Below are positions 14,579-24,258 of a stretch of 39,269 nucleotides of DNA, one piece after another. This stretch comes from Nitrospirota bacterium (GTDB lineage: Bacteria > Nitrospirota > Nitrospiria > SBBL01 > JAADHI01). The stretch covers positions 1-39,269 of the forward strand of contig JAJDBU010000035.1 in NCBI GenBank assembly GCA_029261195.1, read 5' to 3'. The translations under genes and the position numbers were made by a program. The first letter of the stretch is position 1, and every line of letters begins with the position of its first letter. Below the pieces are notes generated by a model. That model had not been told where the DNA came from. It made no database searches and saw only the letters and a list, made by a program, of their open reading frames with translations.

Positions 14579-14622
14579 AAAAAAAACCGCCGGACACCAC
14601 CTGCTTCAGCTGATGTCCGGCG
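14579..14622 (-). terminator. Rho-independent terminator closing the envelope operon
   Basis: A perfect 9-bp stem (arms 14588-14596 and 14614-14622, CGCCGGACA with its complement) is followed on the minus strand by eight T (14586-14579). It lies about 90 bases after the beta-barrel gene and just before ruvB. Confidence 0.88.
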
Positions 14623-14708
14623 AAAGCACTATATAATACGATAGAGGATTCGGCCTTTCTTTTCCACTACCCTTTTGTCCCGCTGTTGGCATAAGGGATG
14701 TCAGAAGA

Positions 14709-16001
14709 TCAAAATTCAATCTTCACGCCGACGATGCCTTGGTTTCGGTCATATTCATAGCGGGGATCGGTCGTGTCCTGCTGAATCGAATCAATCTCTC
14801 CCCAAAGCACCCATTGCCGATATAAAGGCATTTCCCCTGAAAGTTTGAACTCAAGGGCATCATATTTTGTTTTCGGGAAGTTTTTATTATCAAACGCGAA
14901 AGTGTTCGGGTGCTTTCTTGTCCAGTAGGCGACACTCACCTTTAACCGTCGTTGTTGCTTGTCATTGTAGATTGCGCGAAGCTTATAAACGTTTCGGGTG
15001 AAATTCGAGTATCCCTGGAATTCGTCAGTTCGGGTCTGGTAATTGTAATCAAGGTAGACGGCCCAAAGAGGACTCAAGCGATTTTTCAAGGAAACGTCGA
15101 GTTCATGAAAGGTGTATTCCCGTGTCGGGTTAGGTGTGACTTGATCAACTCTCGGGATAGCAACCTTTTTTCCATCGACTTTTCTCCTGGCGATCCATAC
15201 ATCGTAATCGCGTATAAAATAATCGTAGCCAATTGTCAGTTTTGTCGGGCGGATGATCTGGACACTTACCTCAGCACCAATGCGATAGCGCTGATGGTCG
15301 AATTGATCGAAGGCCGTGGATTTGTAGTCGTAAGTTCGGGTTTCTGCGGTGATCGCGTATTCGAGCAGGGTCGTTCGGATGCTTAACTCAGTCTCCAGAC
15401 CATAAAAGAGGTAGTTATATCTCTCCCCAATAGGCAGACCAAGCGGTACACCATCCTGCTCCCCACTGTTAGTCAATTTTTCTTTGCCGGTATCCCGGTC
15501 ATAATAAGTTTTATTTTTTTGCTCTGCGATAGGGCCAATGTAAAACGTATATTTTTTCTTTTTAAGCTTTTTCAACAGAAATTCTAGGCCGGTTTTTAAA
15601 CTGACTTTATAGTCATCAGCATTCTCAAAGTCGGAATCCAGATACTTTCGCCCAGTGAGTTTGAACTTGCTGGTCCACTTATTGAGCTTCACTTTTTTGA
15701 GCCATGGAAATCTGCTTAATTTTATTTTACTTTCGGCCTTGAGTTTATACGGGACGAACAGGCCCGATTGGACTTTCGGAACCGTTGTTCCAGTTGTCCC
15801 ATCCAGTTCTTTCGGCGCAAATGGATCAAGATAACTTGTATCCGAAGACCGAAAAATATTGTCATCGTAACCCAAACCGGTTTCGACCTCAATGGAGTAT
15901 GCTTTCGCAAGAGCGCTTGTCTGTCCAAAGCCCAATAATATGCTCAGGAAGCCGAATAGTAAAAAAAGAAAGATTGCGGATGGTTTATGGATGTTGTTCA
16001 T
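14709..16001 (-). CDS. Outer-membrane beta-barrel protein
   Basis: This 430-residue protein has a Sec signal peptide (hydrophobic FLFLLFGFLSILLGFGQTS, cleavage near ALA). The mature part is made of alternating aromatic/polar strands typical of a beta-barrel (for example TLLEYAITAETRTYDYKST, LTIGYDYFIRDYDVW, WAVYLDYNYQTRTDEF) and ends in a terminal Phe (GVKIEF), the usual BAM recognition signal. It begins with the motif YSIEVETGLGYDDNIFRS, common in uncharacterised surface barrels. Start by ATG after TTAGGAG. It is the last gene of the four-gene operon, 9 bases after the TPR gene. It may be a pore or an envelope anchor for that system; no specific substrate is visible. Confidence 0.82.
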   Translation of the reverse strand: MNNIHKPSAIFLFLLFGFLSILLGFGQTSALAKAYSIEVETGLGYDDNIFRSSDTSYLDPFAPKELDGTTGTTVPKVQSGLFVPYKLKAESKIKLSRFPWLKKVKLNKWTSKFKLTGRKYLDSDFENADDYKVSLKTGLEFLLKKLKKKKYTFYIGPIAEQKNKTYYDRDTGKEKLTNSGEQDGVPLGLPIGERYNYLFYGLETELSIRTTLLEYAITAETRTYDYKSTAFDQFDHQRYRIGAEVSVQIIRPTKLTIGYDYFIRDYDVWIARRKVDGKKVAIPRVDQVTPNPTREYTFHELDVSLKNRLSPLWAVYLDYNYQTRTDEFQGYSNFTRNVYKLRAIYNDKQQRRLKVSVAYWTRKHPNTFAFDNKNFPKTKYDALEFKLSGEMPLYRQWVLWGEIDSIQQDTTDPRYEYDRNQGIVGVKIEF

Positions 16002-16010
16002 GATGGTCTC

Positions 16011-18131
16011 CTAATGGGTCTGTTTGGGTAGTTTTTTCAGTTCTCTGATGATTCTTTTGTTATCGGGGAAAAGGCCCTGAGCCTTTTCCAGGGTTTCCCT
16101 GGCCTTCTCAAACTGCTTCGACCTTCGGTAAACACGCCCCAACTCTAGATGCAACTTTACATCTTTGGCCTCTACGCTCAAGCCTCTTTTGAGCACCACG
16201 ATTGCCTCATCTGTTCTTTTGAGTCTCGCGAGTGTTCTTCCTAAAAGCCTGATTGCCTGAGTGTCTTCAGGATCCAGCTTGAGTATTGTTTTAAAGGCAT
16301 CCTCAGCCTCTTCCCTTTGCTTTCCTTTGAGATAGGCAAGGGCCAATTCGAGGCGCAACTTTACGTCGGCGGCATCCGCCGTCACCCCTTTTTCGAGGAC
16401 CTCTATGGCTTCATCTATTTTGTTTGATTGCGCAAGGGTTCGCCCGAGGAGTTTGAGTGCCCGCGTGTTTTCAGGGTCAAGCTTCAGCACTGTTCTAAAG
16501 GACTCCTCAGCCTGCTCCCCTTGCTCTGTTTTACGATAAGCGAGGGCTAGGTTAAACCAGCCCGGCGCATAGGTCTCATCTCGCTTCAACAATTCTTTGT
16601 ATTCGATGATGGCATTTTGATAATCCTCTTGTTGGGCATAGCGCACAGCCAGATTCAGTCGGGCCGCATTGTAATCGGCATTGATGGTCACGGCCTGTTT
16701 GAGGTAATGGATGGCTTGATCATTTTGGTTCTTGCGCGAGAACAGAATCCCAAGATTGTACATCGCTTGTTCATAAGCCGGTTTTTGCTCAATGGCTTTT
16801 AAAAAGGCGACTTCCGCTTGTTCAAAATTCTCCTCTCGAAGATAGCTTAGGCCGAGATTATAATGAGCTTCCGGCCACTGGCGTTGCCCTTGCAATGCGC
16901 TTTGGTAGGCAGAGGTCGCCGCAGCATTTTCGCCTCGTGCAGCGAAGACGAGACCTAAATTGTACGAGGCCGCGGGGTATCGGTTGTCCTTTAATTCAAT
17001 GGCCTTTTCATATTGCTCTATTGCTGTTTCATAATGATTTGAAGCAACGGCAATCCTGCCCAGATTGAAGTGGCTTTCGGCATGTTCCGGGTTCCGGTTG
17101 AGGATTTCCATGAACTGAGCCTCCGCTTCCCGACTCATCTTTTGATCCAGAAGCATGAGGCCCAAGTTGTAGCGGGCCTTTAAATATTCGGGTTGAAGAT
17201 CAATGGCCTTGCGATAGGCCTCTTCGGCCAAACGTTGATTATTATGGGAGGAATGCAGCAGACCCAGATGGACATAGGTCGGAGCATAATTCTCATCTAG
17301 TTTGATGATTTTTTCATATTCCGCCAGCGCGCGTGAGAGACCCTCCGGCGTCTTGGGCTCAAGAGAGGCTAGGCCAAAACGCGGTTTCAGATAGGCGGGT
17401 TTCAGGGAAATAGCGCGTTCAAAGTAGCGTCTTGCCTTTTTCAGAGCGCCCATATCGCGGGCAATCAGTCCCGCATTATGGAGGACTTTTGACTTTCGTC
17501 CCATCGCTCCCAGTTTGGATGTGGTCTCAAAAACAGCCAGAGCCTTTTTCAACTCGCCCAAGCGCTTGTAGGTGATGCCCAGATTGTAGTGCGATTCAAA
17601 ATGGAAGGGCAAAGCCCGCGTGGCAGATTCGTATTGCTCGGCAGCTTCAGCATAAAGGGATTTTTCTGAAAGAATGACCCCCTTATTAAAATAGGCCTTG
17701 GCATAAACAGGTTCGGTTTGAAGCGCTCGATTGAGCAGTGCCAGGGCATCATCTTTTTCTTCCGACAGGATCTTTAAAACAGCGAGATCATTTAAAACTC
17801 GGGAAGTGGCTTTCTTCGCCAGAAGGTCTTCAAGAATTTTTTTGGCCTCTTCCAGATTGCCTTCATCCACCTTTTGATAAGCCTTTGCATGTTCGGGATC
17901 AATTTGAGCCCCTGGACCCTCTTCTTTCGAGAAAGCAGGTCCGATTTCAAAGCCCTCATCATCTGAGTCGGTTTCGGAAAGATTATCTTCTATGGCAGAT
18001 TCCCGAATCACGATTACACGGACTTTATCGGCCTCAAAATTGGAGCGAAAATGCACCACGGCGATAAGCAGAACCACAATAAGCGGGGCCATCAGAATGG
18101 ACAAAAAACTTTCCCGGATAAAGGTCATCAT
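16011..18131 (-). CDS. Membrane-anchored tetratricopeptide-repeat protein
   Basis: This 706-residue protein has one N-terminal transmembrane helix (FLSILMAPLIVVLLIAVVHF, about residues 8-27) followed by an acidic linker and about 17 TPR units from residue 80 to the end. The repeats show the canonical pattern (for example KAYFNKGVILSEKSLYAEAAE, ESHYNLGITYKRLGELKKAL). With the N-terminal anchor the repeats probably face the periplasm, as a scaffold for protein partners. It overlaps the ATP-grasp gene by 4 bases and sits 9 bases before the beta-barrel gene, so all are co-expressed. No catalytic domain is seen. Confidence 0.88.
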   Translation of the reverse strand: MMTFIRESFLSILMAPLIVVLLIAVVHFRSNFEADKVRVIVIRESAIEDNLSETDSDDEGFEIGPAFSKEEGPGAQIDPEHAKAYQKVDEGNLEEAKKILEDLLAKKATSRVLNDLAVLKILSEEKDDALALLNRALQTEPVYAKAYFNKGVILSEKSLYAEAAEQYESATRALPFHFESHYNLGITYKRLGELKKALAVFETTSKLGAMGRKSKVLHNAGLIARDMGALKKARRYFERAISLKPAYLKPRFGLASLEPKTPEGLSRALAEYEKIIKLDENYAPTYVHLGLLHSSHNNQRLAEEAYRKAIDLQPEYLKARYNLGLMLLDQKMSREAEAQFMEILNRNPEHAESHFNLGRIAVASNHYETAIEQYEKAIELKDNRYPAASYNLGLVFAARGENAAATSAYQSALQGQRQWPEAHYNLGLSYLREENFEQAEVAFLKAIEQKPAYEQAMYNLGILFSRKNQNDQAIHYLKQAVTINADYNAARLNLAVRYAQQEDYQNAIIEYKELLKRDETYAPGWFNLALAYRKTEQGEQAEESFRTVLKLDPENTRALKLLGRTLAQSNKIDEAIEVLEKGVTADAADVKLRLELALAYLKGKQREEAEDAFKTILKLDPEDTQAIRLLGRTLARLKRTDEAIVVLKRGLSVEAKDVKLHLELGRVYRRSKQFEKARETLEKAQGLFPDNKRIIRELKKLPKQTH

Positions 18132-19042
18132 GACATCAGACTCCGAAGCGAAGGCCCATCCTCTAATATTTTTTTGAGCCCTCGTTGGTTGGCATTTTGT
18201 ATGGCGAGTCCGGGACGCACATTGATTTCAAGTAACACCGGTCCGCGTTCGGTCACGGCAATATCGACACCGAGATATTTTAAGGGGACGGCCTCTGCGG
18301 CCAGGCGGCTGATGCGGAGGATTTCCGTCCAATACGGGATGGCAACGTCAATCAGGGAATCTCCGCTGTCGGGGTGCTGCGTGATCTGTTGCCCATCCAG
18401 TACGGCGTAATTGGTGCGGCCCGTCTCAAGATCAATCCCGATACCGATGCCGCCCTGGTGGAGGTTGGCCTTTCCGTCCGATGCCTCCGTGGCAATCCTA
18501 ATCATGGCGAGCGCCGGTTCATTTTGGAACAGAATGACCCGGACATCGGCGAGCCCCAGAGGACTTAAGTTGATGACGTCGGGGTGCTGAATGAGTCTTT
18601 CTTCAACAACGGCCGTGTCATGTAGGTCATGGCAGAAGACGCCGAAAATGATATCGGAAAAGTGTTTTCTAAAAGAGGCGATATCATGGGTCTTGCCGCC
18701 CGGCCCGATCCACTGATTGCCCTTGCGCCCCACCACCACAATAATGCCGTTACCACCTGCGCCGCGTGAGGGTTTGATCACAAAATCATCATAAGGCGCG
18801 AGGTCCTGCTCCAGGTTCTGAAGCTCAAAAAAATAACGGTATGATTGATAGGTCTTCGGAGTCGGCACACCCGAATTTTTGAGAACCTCCTTTGTCTTAA
18901 GTTTGTCATCCGCCATAGGGAAATACCTTCGGGGGTTATGCGGATAAATGTAATGAAGGTTCCGCTCATTGATTCCCAGTATCCGCCTGGTTTTTCCAGT
19001 GGATTGGGTAATGGACTTGAAGTATTTTTTAAGTATATTCAT
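18128..19042 (-). CDS. RimK-related ATP-grasp ligase (alpha-L-glutamate ligase-like)
   Basis: This 304-residue cytosolic ATP-grasp enzyme belongs to the 'alpha-L-glutamate ligase-like' group related to RimK, which ligates amino acids to a peptide or small-molecule carboxylate using ATP. The ATP-binding part shows FVIKPSRGAGGNGIIVV (about 87-103); the Mg-binding end shows GPVLLEINVRPGLAIQNAN (about 266-284). The substrate is unknown. It starts directly after the stop of the transglutaminase-7TM gene and overlaps the TPR gene. Pairing of this ligase type with the 7TM transglutaminase-like protein is a known but functionally unsolved association; the retropepsin-like Zn-protease homolog often found with them is absent here. 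Confidence 0.88.
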   Translation of the reverse strand: MNILKKYFKSITQSTGKTRRILGINERNLHYIYPHNPRRYFPMADDKLKTKEVLKNSGVPTPKTYQSYRYFFELQNLEQDLAPYDDFVIKPSRGAGGNGIIVVVGRKGNQWIGPGGKTHDIASFRKHFSDIIFGVFCHDLHDTAVVEERLIQHPDVINLSPLGLADVRVILFQNEPALAMIRIATEASDGKANLHQGGIGIGIDLETGRTNYAVLDGQQITQHPDSGDSLIDVAIPYWTEILRISRLAAEAVPLKYLGVDIAVTERGPVLLEINVRPGLAIQNANQRGLKKILEDGPSLRSLMS

Positions 19043-20650
19043 CTATCCAACGGTTCCCGGCTGAGGTCTCTGGATGAGATCTTTAAAACGGAAGTATTCA
19101 AGGGCCCGGATACCAATCCATCTTCCGATCCAGAGATCCAGGGCAATGACAATCAGGAGGGATTCGGGAAAGACCAGGACGAAGCTTTGAAGAATGGTCG
19201 TTGCCATGGCGGCATAACAGAGGGAGACGGCCAGTAAGGTTGTGAACAGAATTTTAAATGCCGGGCCCGTGCCCTGTTCTGTTTGAATGATGACCAGACG
19301 TTCCGCCGTAATGGTTAGAATGGCAATCGGAAACAGGGTGATATGCGCCAGTTCAAAGAAGCCCGCGGCCACACTGGCCGCCGCAATCGTCATCATCAGC
19401 AGAATCACGGCGGTGAGCATGATCGCAAGCTTTGGGGTGTGAAGCAGCTTCAAACGGTCCAGCCCGGCGCTTAAGATGGCTATGATAATGATGATCACAG
19501 AAAACCCGAGGGTCCCCCACCAAAACCCGGTCTCCCGGGCGGCGGCGGCAATGAGGGCGGGTAGAAAGGTCCCGAAGGTTTCCAGTCCGATCACATTCCG
19601 GAGGATGGCCATGACCAAGACACCGAAGGGCAGCATCAGGATGATTTTCAGCAGGTTCTGGGAAATGCCAATCCGTTCAAAAAGAGCGTAGAGGTTGCCG
19701 GCATCAAAGATAGCCCCGCGACTGTCCGAAAGGCTCTCCTGCTGCGGGACCAAACGTCGCGTCATTTTATAGAGATATTGAAAGTTGATATTGGAGGTAT
19801 GTTTAAACATCACCAAATCCCCCGTATAGAACTTGATATAGTTTTCGGGCAGTTCGGCGAAGTGATTATTGATAGTATCGAAGGGGACCCAATGCCCATT
19901 CACATAGACCTCGACCCATTGGTGGGTGACCCGCTTTGAGCCCTGTTTCAGAATAAGCCCGCCGATCAAACGGGCGGGCATATTGAGTTTTCGCGCCATC
20001 GCCACGAAAAGACGACTCTTACCGTTACAACTGGCTTCTTCCAGTTTCAAGGCCGTCAGCGCATCGGTGTAGCCCGAGAAATCCTTGTTGGCCAGTTCCT
20101 CCTGAAGATAATGGTGAATCACTTTAAGGGATTCCAATATCGTTCTGTTTTTTTCGGGCAATAGAACATCCAGTTTTTTTGAGATCAGCGGATCATGAAC
20201 CTGAATGCCTTCTGTGGCGCTCAGAAAGGGGTTTAATGATTTAGGGTATCGGCGTGGGATCGCCATTTTTTCCGGAATCTCATATCGAAGCCGTTCTCCC
20301 TGAACCGAGAAGGTGTAAACAATATTCTTGCGTTCCGAGAGTTGCTCTGCATTCCAGTGCGCCACGCGGTTAAGCCCGTCTGCCTGAAGCGTCATAGCAA
20401 AGGCCTCTGAGGCATTTTGCTCGTCCGTGATCAGTTGACGGTCATTACTCGTGGGAAGATAGGTAGCGACATGGATGTCTTCGCCATGCCCATCGACCTG
20501 CATACTGATATTGACGCGGTAACTGACAACAGGCGCCAGAGCCGAAATCGGATATTCCAGCACAAAAAGTTTGTAGGCAATGAGCAGGGTCGGCACCAGG
20601 ACGACGAGGGCCAGTACCCACTTGTAAGCGATGCTAGAGTTATTTTTCAT
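19043..20650 (-). CDS. Transglutaminase-like domain fused to seven transmembrane helices
   Basis: This 535-residue inner-membrane protein has an N-terminal transmembrane anchor (about 11-30), a periplasmic domain with a transglutaminase-like fold (about 170-270), then seven hydrophobic helices (about 325-520). It carries the family signature around RNVIGLETFGTFLPALIAAA. Homologs are annotated as 'inactive transglutaminase fused to 7TM', yet here a full papain-like triad is visible: Cys208 (EEASCNGKS), His243 (VTHQWVEVY) and Asp258 (WVPFDTIN). It is first in the operon with the ATP-grasp ligase, the TPR protein and the beta-barrel, and its promoter should lie in 20651-20830. A role in cleaving or joining peptides outside the inner membrane is plausible but unproven. 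Confidence 0.87.
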   Translation of the reverse strand: MKNNSSIAYKWVLALVVLVPTLLIAYKLFVLEYPISALAPVVSYRVNISMQVDGHGEDIHVATYLPTSNDRQLITDEQNASEAFAMTLQADGLNRVAHWNAEQLSERKNIVYTFSVQGERLRYEIPEKMAIPRRYPKSLNPFLSATEGIQVHDPLISKKLDVLLPEKNRTILESLKVIHHYLQEELANKDFSGYTDALTALKLEEASCNGKSRLFVAMARKLNMPARLIGGLILKQGSKRVTHQWVEVYVNGHWVPFDTINNHFAELPENYIKFYTGDLVMFKHTSNINFQYLYKMTRRLVPQQESLSDSRGAIFDAGNLYALFERIGISQNLLKIILMLPFGVLVMAILRNVIGLETFGTFLPALIAAAARETGFWWGTLGFSVIIIIIAILSAGLDRLKLLHTPKLAIMLTAVILLMMTIAAASVAAGFFELAHITLFPIAILTITAERLVIIQTEQGTGPAFKILFTTLLAVSLCYAAMATTILQSFVLVFPESLLIVIALDLWIGRWIGIRALEYFRFKDLIQRPQPGTVG

Positions 20651-22797: not shown

Positions 22798-24258
22798 ATG
22801 TTTGAGCAAACCTTCAAAAATATCGACGACGTACTCCGGAAAGAGGCGGGTTGTACCACAGAGCTGGACTACACCGAGCAGACCTCCTGGATGCTCTTCC
22901 TTAAATATCTGGATGATTTGGAAGAGGAGCGGGCCATTGCGGCGGAGCTTGTCGGCAAGCCTTACGCCTTCATTATCGACAAAACCCACCACTGGTCTCG
23001 TTGGGCTGCACCTAAAAAATCCGACGGTCGTTTTGATCACGATGCCGCCTTAACGGGTGACGATCTTATCGACTATGTCAACGACACCCTGTTTCCCTAC
23101 CTGAAAGGCTTCAAGCAGCGGGCGTCTTCATCCGATACCATTGAATACAAAATCGGGGAAATTTTCAGCGAAATAAAAAACAAGTTCCAAAGCGGCTATT
23201 CCCTGCGTGATGCGCTCGAACTATTGGATCAGCTTCACTTCCGCTCACAAAAAGAGAAACACGAGCTTTCCCACCTTTACGAAAGTAAAATCAAAAACAT
23301 GGGCAACGCAGGGCGAAACGGCGGCGAATATTACACACCCCGCCCACTCATTCGCGCCATGATCCAAGTCACTAAACCCACTATTGGTGAAAGCATTTAC
23401 GACGGGGCCTGTGGCTCTGCCGGTTTTCTCTGCGAGTCTCACGATTATCTGCGCCACGGCAAAGACTCGGAACTGAGTACGACGCAACTCCACACCTTGC
23501 AAACAGCCACCTTCTACGGCAAAGAGAAAAAGAGCCTCGCTTATGTGATTGCGATTATGAACCTCATCTTGCACGGGGTTTCAGCACCCAATGTACTACA
23601 CACCAACACATTGGCGGAGAATCTGGCCGAGGTTCAGGAGAAAGATCGCTATGACATCATTCTCGCCAATCCCCCTTTTGGCGGGAAGGAGCGCAAGGAG
23701 ATTCAACAGAACTTCCCCATTAAAACAGGAGAGACCGCCTTTCTCTTCCTGCAACACTTCATCAAATATTTGAAGGCAGGCGGCAGGGCAGCCGTGGTCA
23801 TCAAGAATACTTTTCTTTCAAACTCTGATAATGCTTCAAAAGCGCTGCGTCAGGACTTGTTGGAAAGCTGTAATCTTTACACCGTGCTGGACTGCCCCGG
23901 AGGCACTTTCCTCGGTGCAGGAGTGAAGACCGTAGTGCTATTTTTTGAAAAAGGCGCACCGACAAGAAAGATCTGGTATTACCAGCTTGATCCCGGCAGA
24001 AACATGGGCAAGACCAATCCGCTGAATGATGATGACCTGAAAGAGTTTGTCTCGCTGCAAGCCAGCTATGCGGATACTGAAAAGTCGTGGATAGTTGACG
24101 GGGAGGAGATTGATAAAAACAGCTTTGATCTCTCGGTAAAAAATCCCAACAAAGCCGAAGAAGCACCGCTACGCGAACCACGAGAGATTCTCGCAGAGAT
24201 TTCGGCGCTGGATGTGGAGAGTGCGAAGGTCTTGGATGGGATTCGGGGGATGCTATGA
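22798..24258 (+). CDS. hsdM: Type I restriction-modification methyltransferase subunit
   Basis: This 486-residue N6-adenine methyltransferase subunit modifies the recognition site together with HsdS. It shows the N-terminal helical domain (YTEQTSWMLFLKYLDDLEEE), the cofactor motif SIYDGACGSAGFLCES (motif I) and the catalytic LANPPFGG (NPPF, motif IV), preceded by YYTPRPLIRAMI, the usual M-subunit signature. Full length. The ATG follows AAGGA by five bases. It overlaps hsdS by 4 bases and opens the operon, divergent from tmk. Confidence 0.96.
   Translation: MFEQTFKNIDDVLRKEAGCTTELDYTEQTSWMLFLKYLDDLEEERAIAAELVGKPYAFIIDKTHHWSRWAAPKKSDGRFDHDAALTGDDLIDYVNDTLFPYLKGFKQRASSSDTIEYKIGEIFSEIKNKFQSGYSLRDALELLDQLHFRSQKEKHELSHLYESKIKNMGNAGRNGGEYYTPRPLIRAMIQVTKPTIGESIYDGACGSAGFLCESHDYLRHGKDSELSTTQLHTLQTATFYGKEKKSLAYVIAIMNLILHGVSAPNVLHTNTLAENLAEVQEKDRYDIILANPPFGGKERKEIQQNFPIKTGETAFLFLQHFIKYLKAGGRAAVVIKNTFLSNSDNASKALRQDLLESCNLYTVLDCPGGTFLGAGVKTVVLFFEKGAPTRKIWYYQLDPGRNMGKTNPLNDDDLKEFVSLQASYADTEKSWIVDGEEIDKNSFDLSVKNPNKAEEAPLREPREILAEISALDVESAKVLDGIRGML

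Follow-up and report, generated by a model that had tools for sequence, protein, structure and literature searches.

A cluster of four closely packed genes in the genome of a Nitrospirota bacterium encodes an ATP-grasp ligase, predicted to be cytosolic, together with a predicted outer-membrane barrel. The cluster lies in a window of 39,269 nucleotides (the whole stretch of DNA that was analysed) from a genome assembly of 3.04 Mb. Its genes encode a 7TM protein with a periplasmic transglutaminase-like (TG) domain, the ligase, a TPR protein and the barrel (Table 1). Minus-strand packing of the four genes in front of a strong terminator, as described in an earlier sequence-only reading of this DNA, was upheld (spacings of 0, -4 and 9 bases). 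In folding computations the terminator hairpin had an energy of -29.9 kcal/mol (z -5.03) and was followed by U8; a simple hairpin scan missed it, probably through the loop limit of that scan. The unit is flanked by housekeeping genes, a DNA polymerase III delta' gene upstream and ruvB downstream, and is thus self-contained and insertion-like. The housekeeping genes are followed (window positions 22798-24258 onwards) by a gene resembling those of type I restriction-modification systems (DNA methyltransferase subunit) and by a run of plus-strand genes, as judged from translation only.

Table 1. Features of the four-gene unit and of the predicted catalytic site (window coordinates).
Feature	Position	Strand	Details
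TG/7TM gene	19043..20650	minus	535 aa
ATP-grasp ligase gene	18128..19042	minus	304 aa; spacing 0 from TG/7TM gene
TPR gene	16011..18131	minus	706 aa; 4-base ATGA overlap with ligase gene
Barrel gene	14709..16001	minus	430 aa; 9 bases from TPR gene
Intrinsic terminator	14580..14623	minus	hairpin about 14623-14588; closes operon
Predicted catalytic Cys208 codon	20027..20029	minus	motif EASCNGK
Predicted catalytic His243 codon	19922..19924	minus	motif HQW
Predicted catalytic Asp258 codon	19877..19879	minus	motif WVPFDT

The TG/7TM protein matches the Pfam families PF14402 (9.1e-47), PF01841 (1.1e-16) and PF14400 (1e-7), with 160 bits for the PF14402 membrane domain against a cut-off of 25. A TM helix at about aa 7-30 precedes a periplasmic beta-domain and a transglutaminase-like catalytic domain (together about aa 40-300), and the C-terminus is formed by the multi-helix PF14402 membrane domain. 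The top Foldseek match of the structure model (pLDDT 90.3) was 3isr, a putative cysteine protease (E 2.5e-14, target-normalised TM 0.73). Other cysteine peptidase/transglutaminase folds were also matched, among them, at low scores, pseudomurein endoisopeptidases. The Cys, His and Asp residues of the TG domain align with their counterparts in 3isr, and the protein thus has the Cys-His-Asp site in a TG fold that marks the active PF01841 type.

The sequence-only reading had placed this protein among the “inactive transglutaminase” proteins. That assignment proved wrong, since the protein belongs to a separate clade in which Cys208, His243 and Asp258 are kept. Across the window protein and the 44 variant proteins of the survey described below, the Cys is present in 45/45, a count to which selection contributed, as one of the two search patterns for the 44 loci (KL[GE]EASCN) includes this residue. 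It is also present in all members found without that pattern (the window protein, four from Nitrospirota and five from Pseudomonadota). The His (45/45) and Asp (42/45) lie outside both patterns. Three proteins, the deepest-branching of the variant, have Cys at the Asp position, and the same three loci are without a barrel. The catalytic Cys was found in none of 40 RloB proteins of the canonical RloABC type from Nitrospirota and Pseudomonadota. Given the intact triad and the TG fold, the domain is very probably catalytic; crosslinking, hydrolysis and deamidation are all reactions for which the triad could be used.

The ligase is RloC/RimK-like (PF14397, 1e-65). Its score with TIGR02291 (alpha-L-glutamate ligase-like; 1e-76) was 257.7 bits, below the cut-off of 314.2. 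Residues K90, E147, R168, N193, D260, E272 and N274 are invariant in 31 homologues, and the closest solved relatives are RimK, cyanophycin synthetase and the tubulin polyglutamylase TTLL7. The TPR protein matches TPR_1 (8e-72) and many other Pfam TPR models; an inner-membrane anchor with the motif RESF.PV... forms its N-terminus, and the TPR array lies outside the cytosol. This anchor is kept in most homologues, and proteins of the deepest branch have a lipobox-like or signal-like N terminus.

The product of the fourth gene has a Sec signal, 16 predicted strands and a C-terminal Phe. It was modelled as a closed 16-strand fold (mean pLDDT 87.5), as would be expected of an outer-membrane beta-barrel. 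The Foldseek PDB matches listed for this model were barrels only, AlgE, BcsC and porins included. From its sequence the protein could not be placed in any named family (no match in Pfam, NCBIfam or PDB sequences), and its homologues weakly match the OMP_b-brl, BBP2_2, MtrB_PioB, SlipAM and EpsL profiles. The trans-envelope topology proposed earlier for the four products fits the structure models and the signals.

Conservation of the unit was surveyed at two scales. Relatives of the TG/7TM protein were found in four of 396 Nitrospirota genomes (54-60% identical). A scan of approximately 85,000 species genomes yielded 44 loci, including the records of those four. They represent at least nine phyla: Nitrospirota, Pseudomonadota (gamma-, beta- and zeta-like), Myxococcota, Thermodesulfobacteriota, Campylobacterota, Spirochaetota, Bacteroidota, Rhodothermota and Candidatus Hydrogenedentota. 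Counted by hand, the ligase gene follows the TG gene in 42 of the 44 loci, the TPR gene comes next in all 40 loci whose contig extends far enough, and the barrel gene after it in 31 of the 36 testable loci, one of these barrels being a contig-end fragment. The intergenic distances are mostly small or overlapping. In most loci with sequence beyond the barrel gene the following gene is on the opposite strand, which indicates that the unit ends at the barrel. Among 296 Nitrospirota genomes, a profile of the barrel family matched 5/5 of those with the variant TG and 1/291 of the others, the latter weakly (Fisher p 3e-10), and the divergence of the four proteins proceeds in step (Spearman 0.63-0.79). 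The proposal that the TPR and barrel genes belong with the ligase/7TM pair is thus borne out, and the four genes almost certainly constitute a conserved unit. All 44 scan records (L064-L107) appear to be of metagenome or environmental origin. Groundwater, hydrothermal and iron-oxidising settings account for many of them, and uncultured lineages may be the main hosts of the variant system.

Departures from the arrangement were observed in several loci. Five testable loci are without a barrel gene, among them a Helicobacteraceae locus with nothing obvious in the barrel slot. In L103 (8076-9740), L105 (12549-14195) and L106 (12870-14516), from Rhodothermota, Hydrogenedentota and an unclassified bacterium, unrelated secreted proteins of about 550 aa occupy this slot, and one of them has a weak sortilin/Vps10 match. 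The TG proteins of these loci are the three with Cys at the position of the catalytic Asp, and in two of the three loci a large secreted CarboxypepD_reg repeat protein is encoded just upstream. In the spirochaete loci L101 (2146-3987), L102 (6136-7974) and L100, a protein with a TPR-like N terminus and a barrel-like C terminus, the barrel part being judged from sequence, is encoded directly upstream of the TG gene, and the one locus where the downstream region is visible has no separate barrel gene there. In six proteobacterial loci (L068:2459-4279, L079, L082, L085, L088 and L095) the gene directly upstream of the TG gene encodes a periplasmic TPR lipoprotein-like product of about 490-760 aa with repeats like DNAxYYxGRS, a candidate cargo or accessory protein. 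A fifth conserved operon gene was considered and rejected: an upstream TPR gene occurs in a minority, namely these six proteobacterial loci and, as the fusion, the three spirochaete loci, and is absent from the window.

The nearest characterized relative of the unit is RloABC. In Pseudomonas, osmotic tolerance, sensitivity to beta-lactams and biofilms all depend in some way on RloB and RloC. RloABC of Pseudomonas aeruginosa is the subject of hypoosmotic tolerance genetics (mBio 2025, PMC12239564); RloA cleaves polyglutamate in vitro, and deletion of rloB or rloC rescues the loss of rloA (PMC12239564). It follows from this rescue that RloB and RloC act together upstream of RloA, generating something that RloA removes. 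The ligase next to the window TG/7TM protein is RloC-like (PF14397), and the TG/7TM protein itself scored 173.6 bits with the NCBIfam RloB model NF052267, for which the cut-off is 900. In a phylogenetic tree the variant and canonical proteins lie on opposite sides of one branch with an SH-aLRT of 100.

The protease separates the two types as well. An RloA-like gene was present in the short flank of 29/30 canonical Pseudomonadota loci and of 0/45 variant loci (the window and the 44), an exclusion with p 1e-19 for loci that are not phylogenetically independent. The earlier remark that the protease is missing here was confirmed, none being encoded in the window. PF05618 proteins were detected in 14/44 variant genomes, always on another contig, and none in the other 30, whose assemblies may be incomplete. 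The idea that a protease is hidden elsewhere in the window locus was rejected, as the only PF05618 protein of the genome is RimB-like, judging from the lack of an evident signal sequence and from the adjoining rimK-like gene. The 7TM/TG gene is present as a single copy in every variant genome except one. The window genome has the active-TG variant only; in its congener and family members canonical RloB, accompanied by RloA and RloC, takes the place of this variant. The active-TG and canonical types are two separate architectures. A text search of the literature on these families retrieved no paper with this arrangement, within a scope that did not extend to most subscription papers or to Iyer et al. 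2009, reportedly the main earlier neighbourhood analysis of these ligases. Given that limited scope, we consider with moderate confidence that the arrangement is a previously undescribed relative of the Rlo stress-tolerance system.

A third architecture was encountered in two genomes of Pseudomonadota that scored weakly for PF14402; in these, a barrel, a TG-less 7TM protein and an ATP-grasp protein are encoded by overlapping genes. The same order was found in three more genomes from the family of one of those two, five genomes in total. The loci (L170:5155-7922, L171:4963-7958, L172, L173 and L175) are without protease or TPR genes, and L170 has a rimK-like gene immediately upstream. Barrels of the active-TG and barrel-7TM-ligase types match each other at the profile level (E 2e-6, probability 89.5). 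The barrel therefore accompanies the 7TM/ligase core repeatedly, whether or not TG, TPR and protease are also present. That two architectures join this core to an outer-membrane barrel points to the cell surface as the destination of the product, and the unit in this way suggests where the Rlo product goes.

We tentatively propose that the four proteins form one Rlo-like trans-envelope unit for export or display, and would put this full mechanism forward as possible rather than probable; the substrate, product, direction of transport, TG chemistry and protein contacts in it are those that we infer. As its family suggests, the cytosolic ligase would make an amide-linked amino-acid product, most likely glutamyl or poly-glutamyl, either free or on a carrier, and the 7TM protein may pass or present it across the inner membrane. 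The periplasmic TG domain would then cut or transfer the product, which is the job of RloA in canonical RloABC; such an exchange of chemistry would explain why the TG type and the protease never share a locus, as is observed. The TPR protein, anchored in the inner membrane, may bridge the periplasm to the 16-strand barrel, an architecture seen in the models, through which the product would be exported or displayed. A conserved cationic pore for polyglutamate passage was not supported: the net charge of the barrel varies between -17 and +20 among family members, which counts against a simple polyglutamate pore. We regard as doubtful the broader version of this proposal, namely a widespread Gram-negative pathway, encountered to date mostly in uncultured bacteria, in which a polyamino acid (e.g. 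poly-glutamate) made in the cytosol by the ATP-grasp ligase is exported or anchored at the surface via the dedicated 7TM/active-TG, TPR and barrel proteins, with RloABC and the barrel-7TM-ligase type as derived forms.

An accidental neighbourhood, in which the TPR and barrel genes are unrelated to the ligase/7TM pair, is extremely improbable and was rejected by the survey. Nothing speaks for it beyond a few barrel-less loci, whereas the gene order is kept across the phyla listed above despite strong sequence divergence, and the barrel co-occurs with the variant TG. The system may instead tag proteins, the ligase and TG domain modifying an envelope protein with amino acids or peptides. The target would be the barrel, the TPR protein or the upstream TPR lipoprotein of some genomes, with the barrel as substrate or platform and not exporter. 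RimK and TTLL-like enzymes, the nearest solved relatives of the ligase, glutamylate proteins (RimK/RpsF, PMC12239564), transglutaminases crosslink proteins, and the unrelated secreted protein in the barrel slot of three deep loci is easier to reconcile with a variable substrate than with a fixed pore. However, two architectures that differ in other respects both include the barrel, the TPR-plus-barrel layout resembles that of polymer exporters such as BcsC, and the ligase is predicted to be cytosolic, whereas the candidate substrates are secreted proteins, so that we judge tagging to be somewhat unlikely.

Quite improbable, in our estimate, is a homeostatic tether without export, in which the TPR protein and barrel would bridge the membranes and the TG domain would act on peptidoglycan stem peptides or periplasmic peptides and thereby adjust the wall under osmotic stress. 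Such a role would be in keeping with the cell-wall and hypoosmotic phenotypes of RloA mutants (PMC12239564), with the increase in vesicle production caused by disruption of an “inactive transglutaminase” gene in Shewanella (PMC12096838) and with the low-scoring resemblance of the TG model to pseudomurein endoisopeptidases, but it leaves a conserved large pore and a cytosolic ligase unexplained. The trans-envelope export or display unit remains our preferred reading.

Several known systems share parts of this arrangement. The Cap/Pgs system of Gram-positives, which makes and exports poly-gamma-glutamate, is comparable mainly in function and would have a similar outcome if the product of the window unit is polyglutamate; no CapA/B/C homologue was identified among the four genes. 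RimBK, which glutamylates ribosomal protein S6, shares the ATP-grasp ligase family with the window unit but is cytosolic and has no membrane parts, and a separate RimBK pair is encoded on another contig of the window genome. Slam/DUF560 translocators of surface lipoproteins likewise combine TPRs with a barrel. The window unit differs from them in having 16 rather than 14 strands, TPR and barrel as separate proteins and no consistent cargo gene; the SlipAM barrel profile did not match the window barrel, and matched only 2/31 homologues, below threshold, at E 0.009 or weaker. The polymer exporters BcsC, PgaA and AlgK/AlgE resemble the window unit in their periplasmic TPR scaffold and 16- to 18-strand barrel. 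Unlike them, the window unit has no glycosyltransferase, its synthetic enzyme being an ATP-grasp ligase, its TPR and barrel are encoded by separate genes, and no sequence relationship rises above threshold. What the window unit has in common with RloABC is a PF14402/PF14400 7TM protein that carries a TG-fold domain in the periplasm, beside an ATP-grasp ligase. RloABC alone has a separate secreted retropepsin-like protease, with a TG domain that is without the catalytic Cys; the window unit, from which the protease is absent, alone has an intact TG triad and the TPR and barrel genes. These differences point to a coherent clade across many phyla that is the intact counterpart of the “inactive transglutaminase” family; its active site, in place of the protease, offers one residue (C208) and one domain for probing the chemistry.
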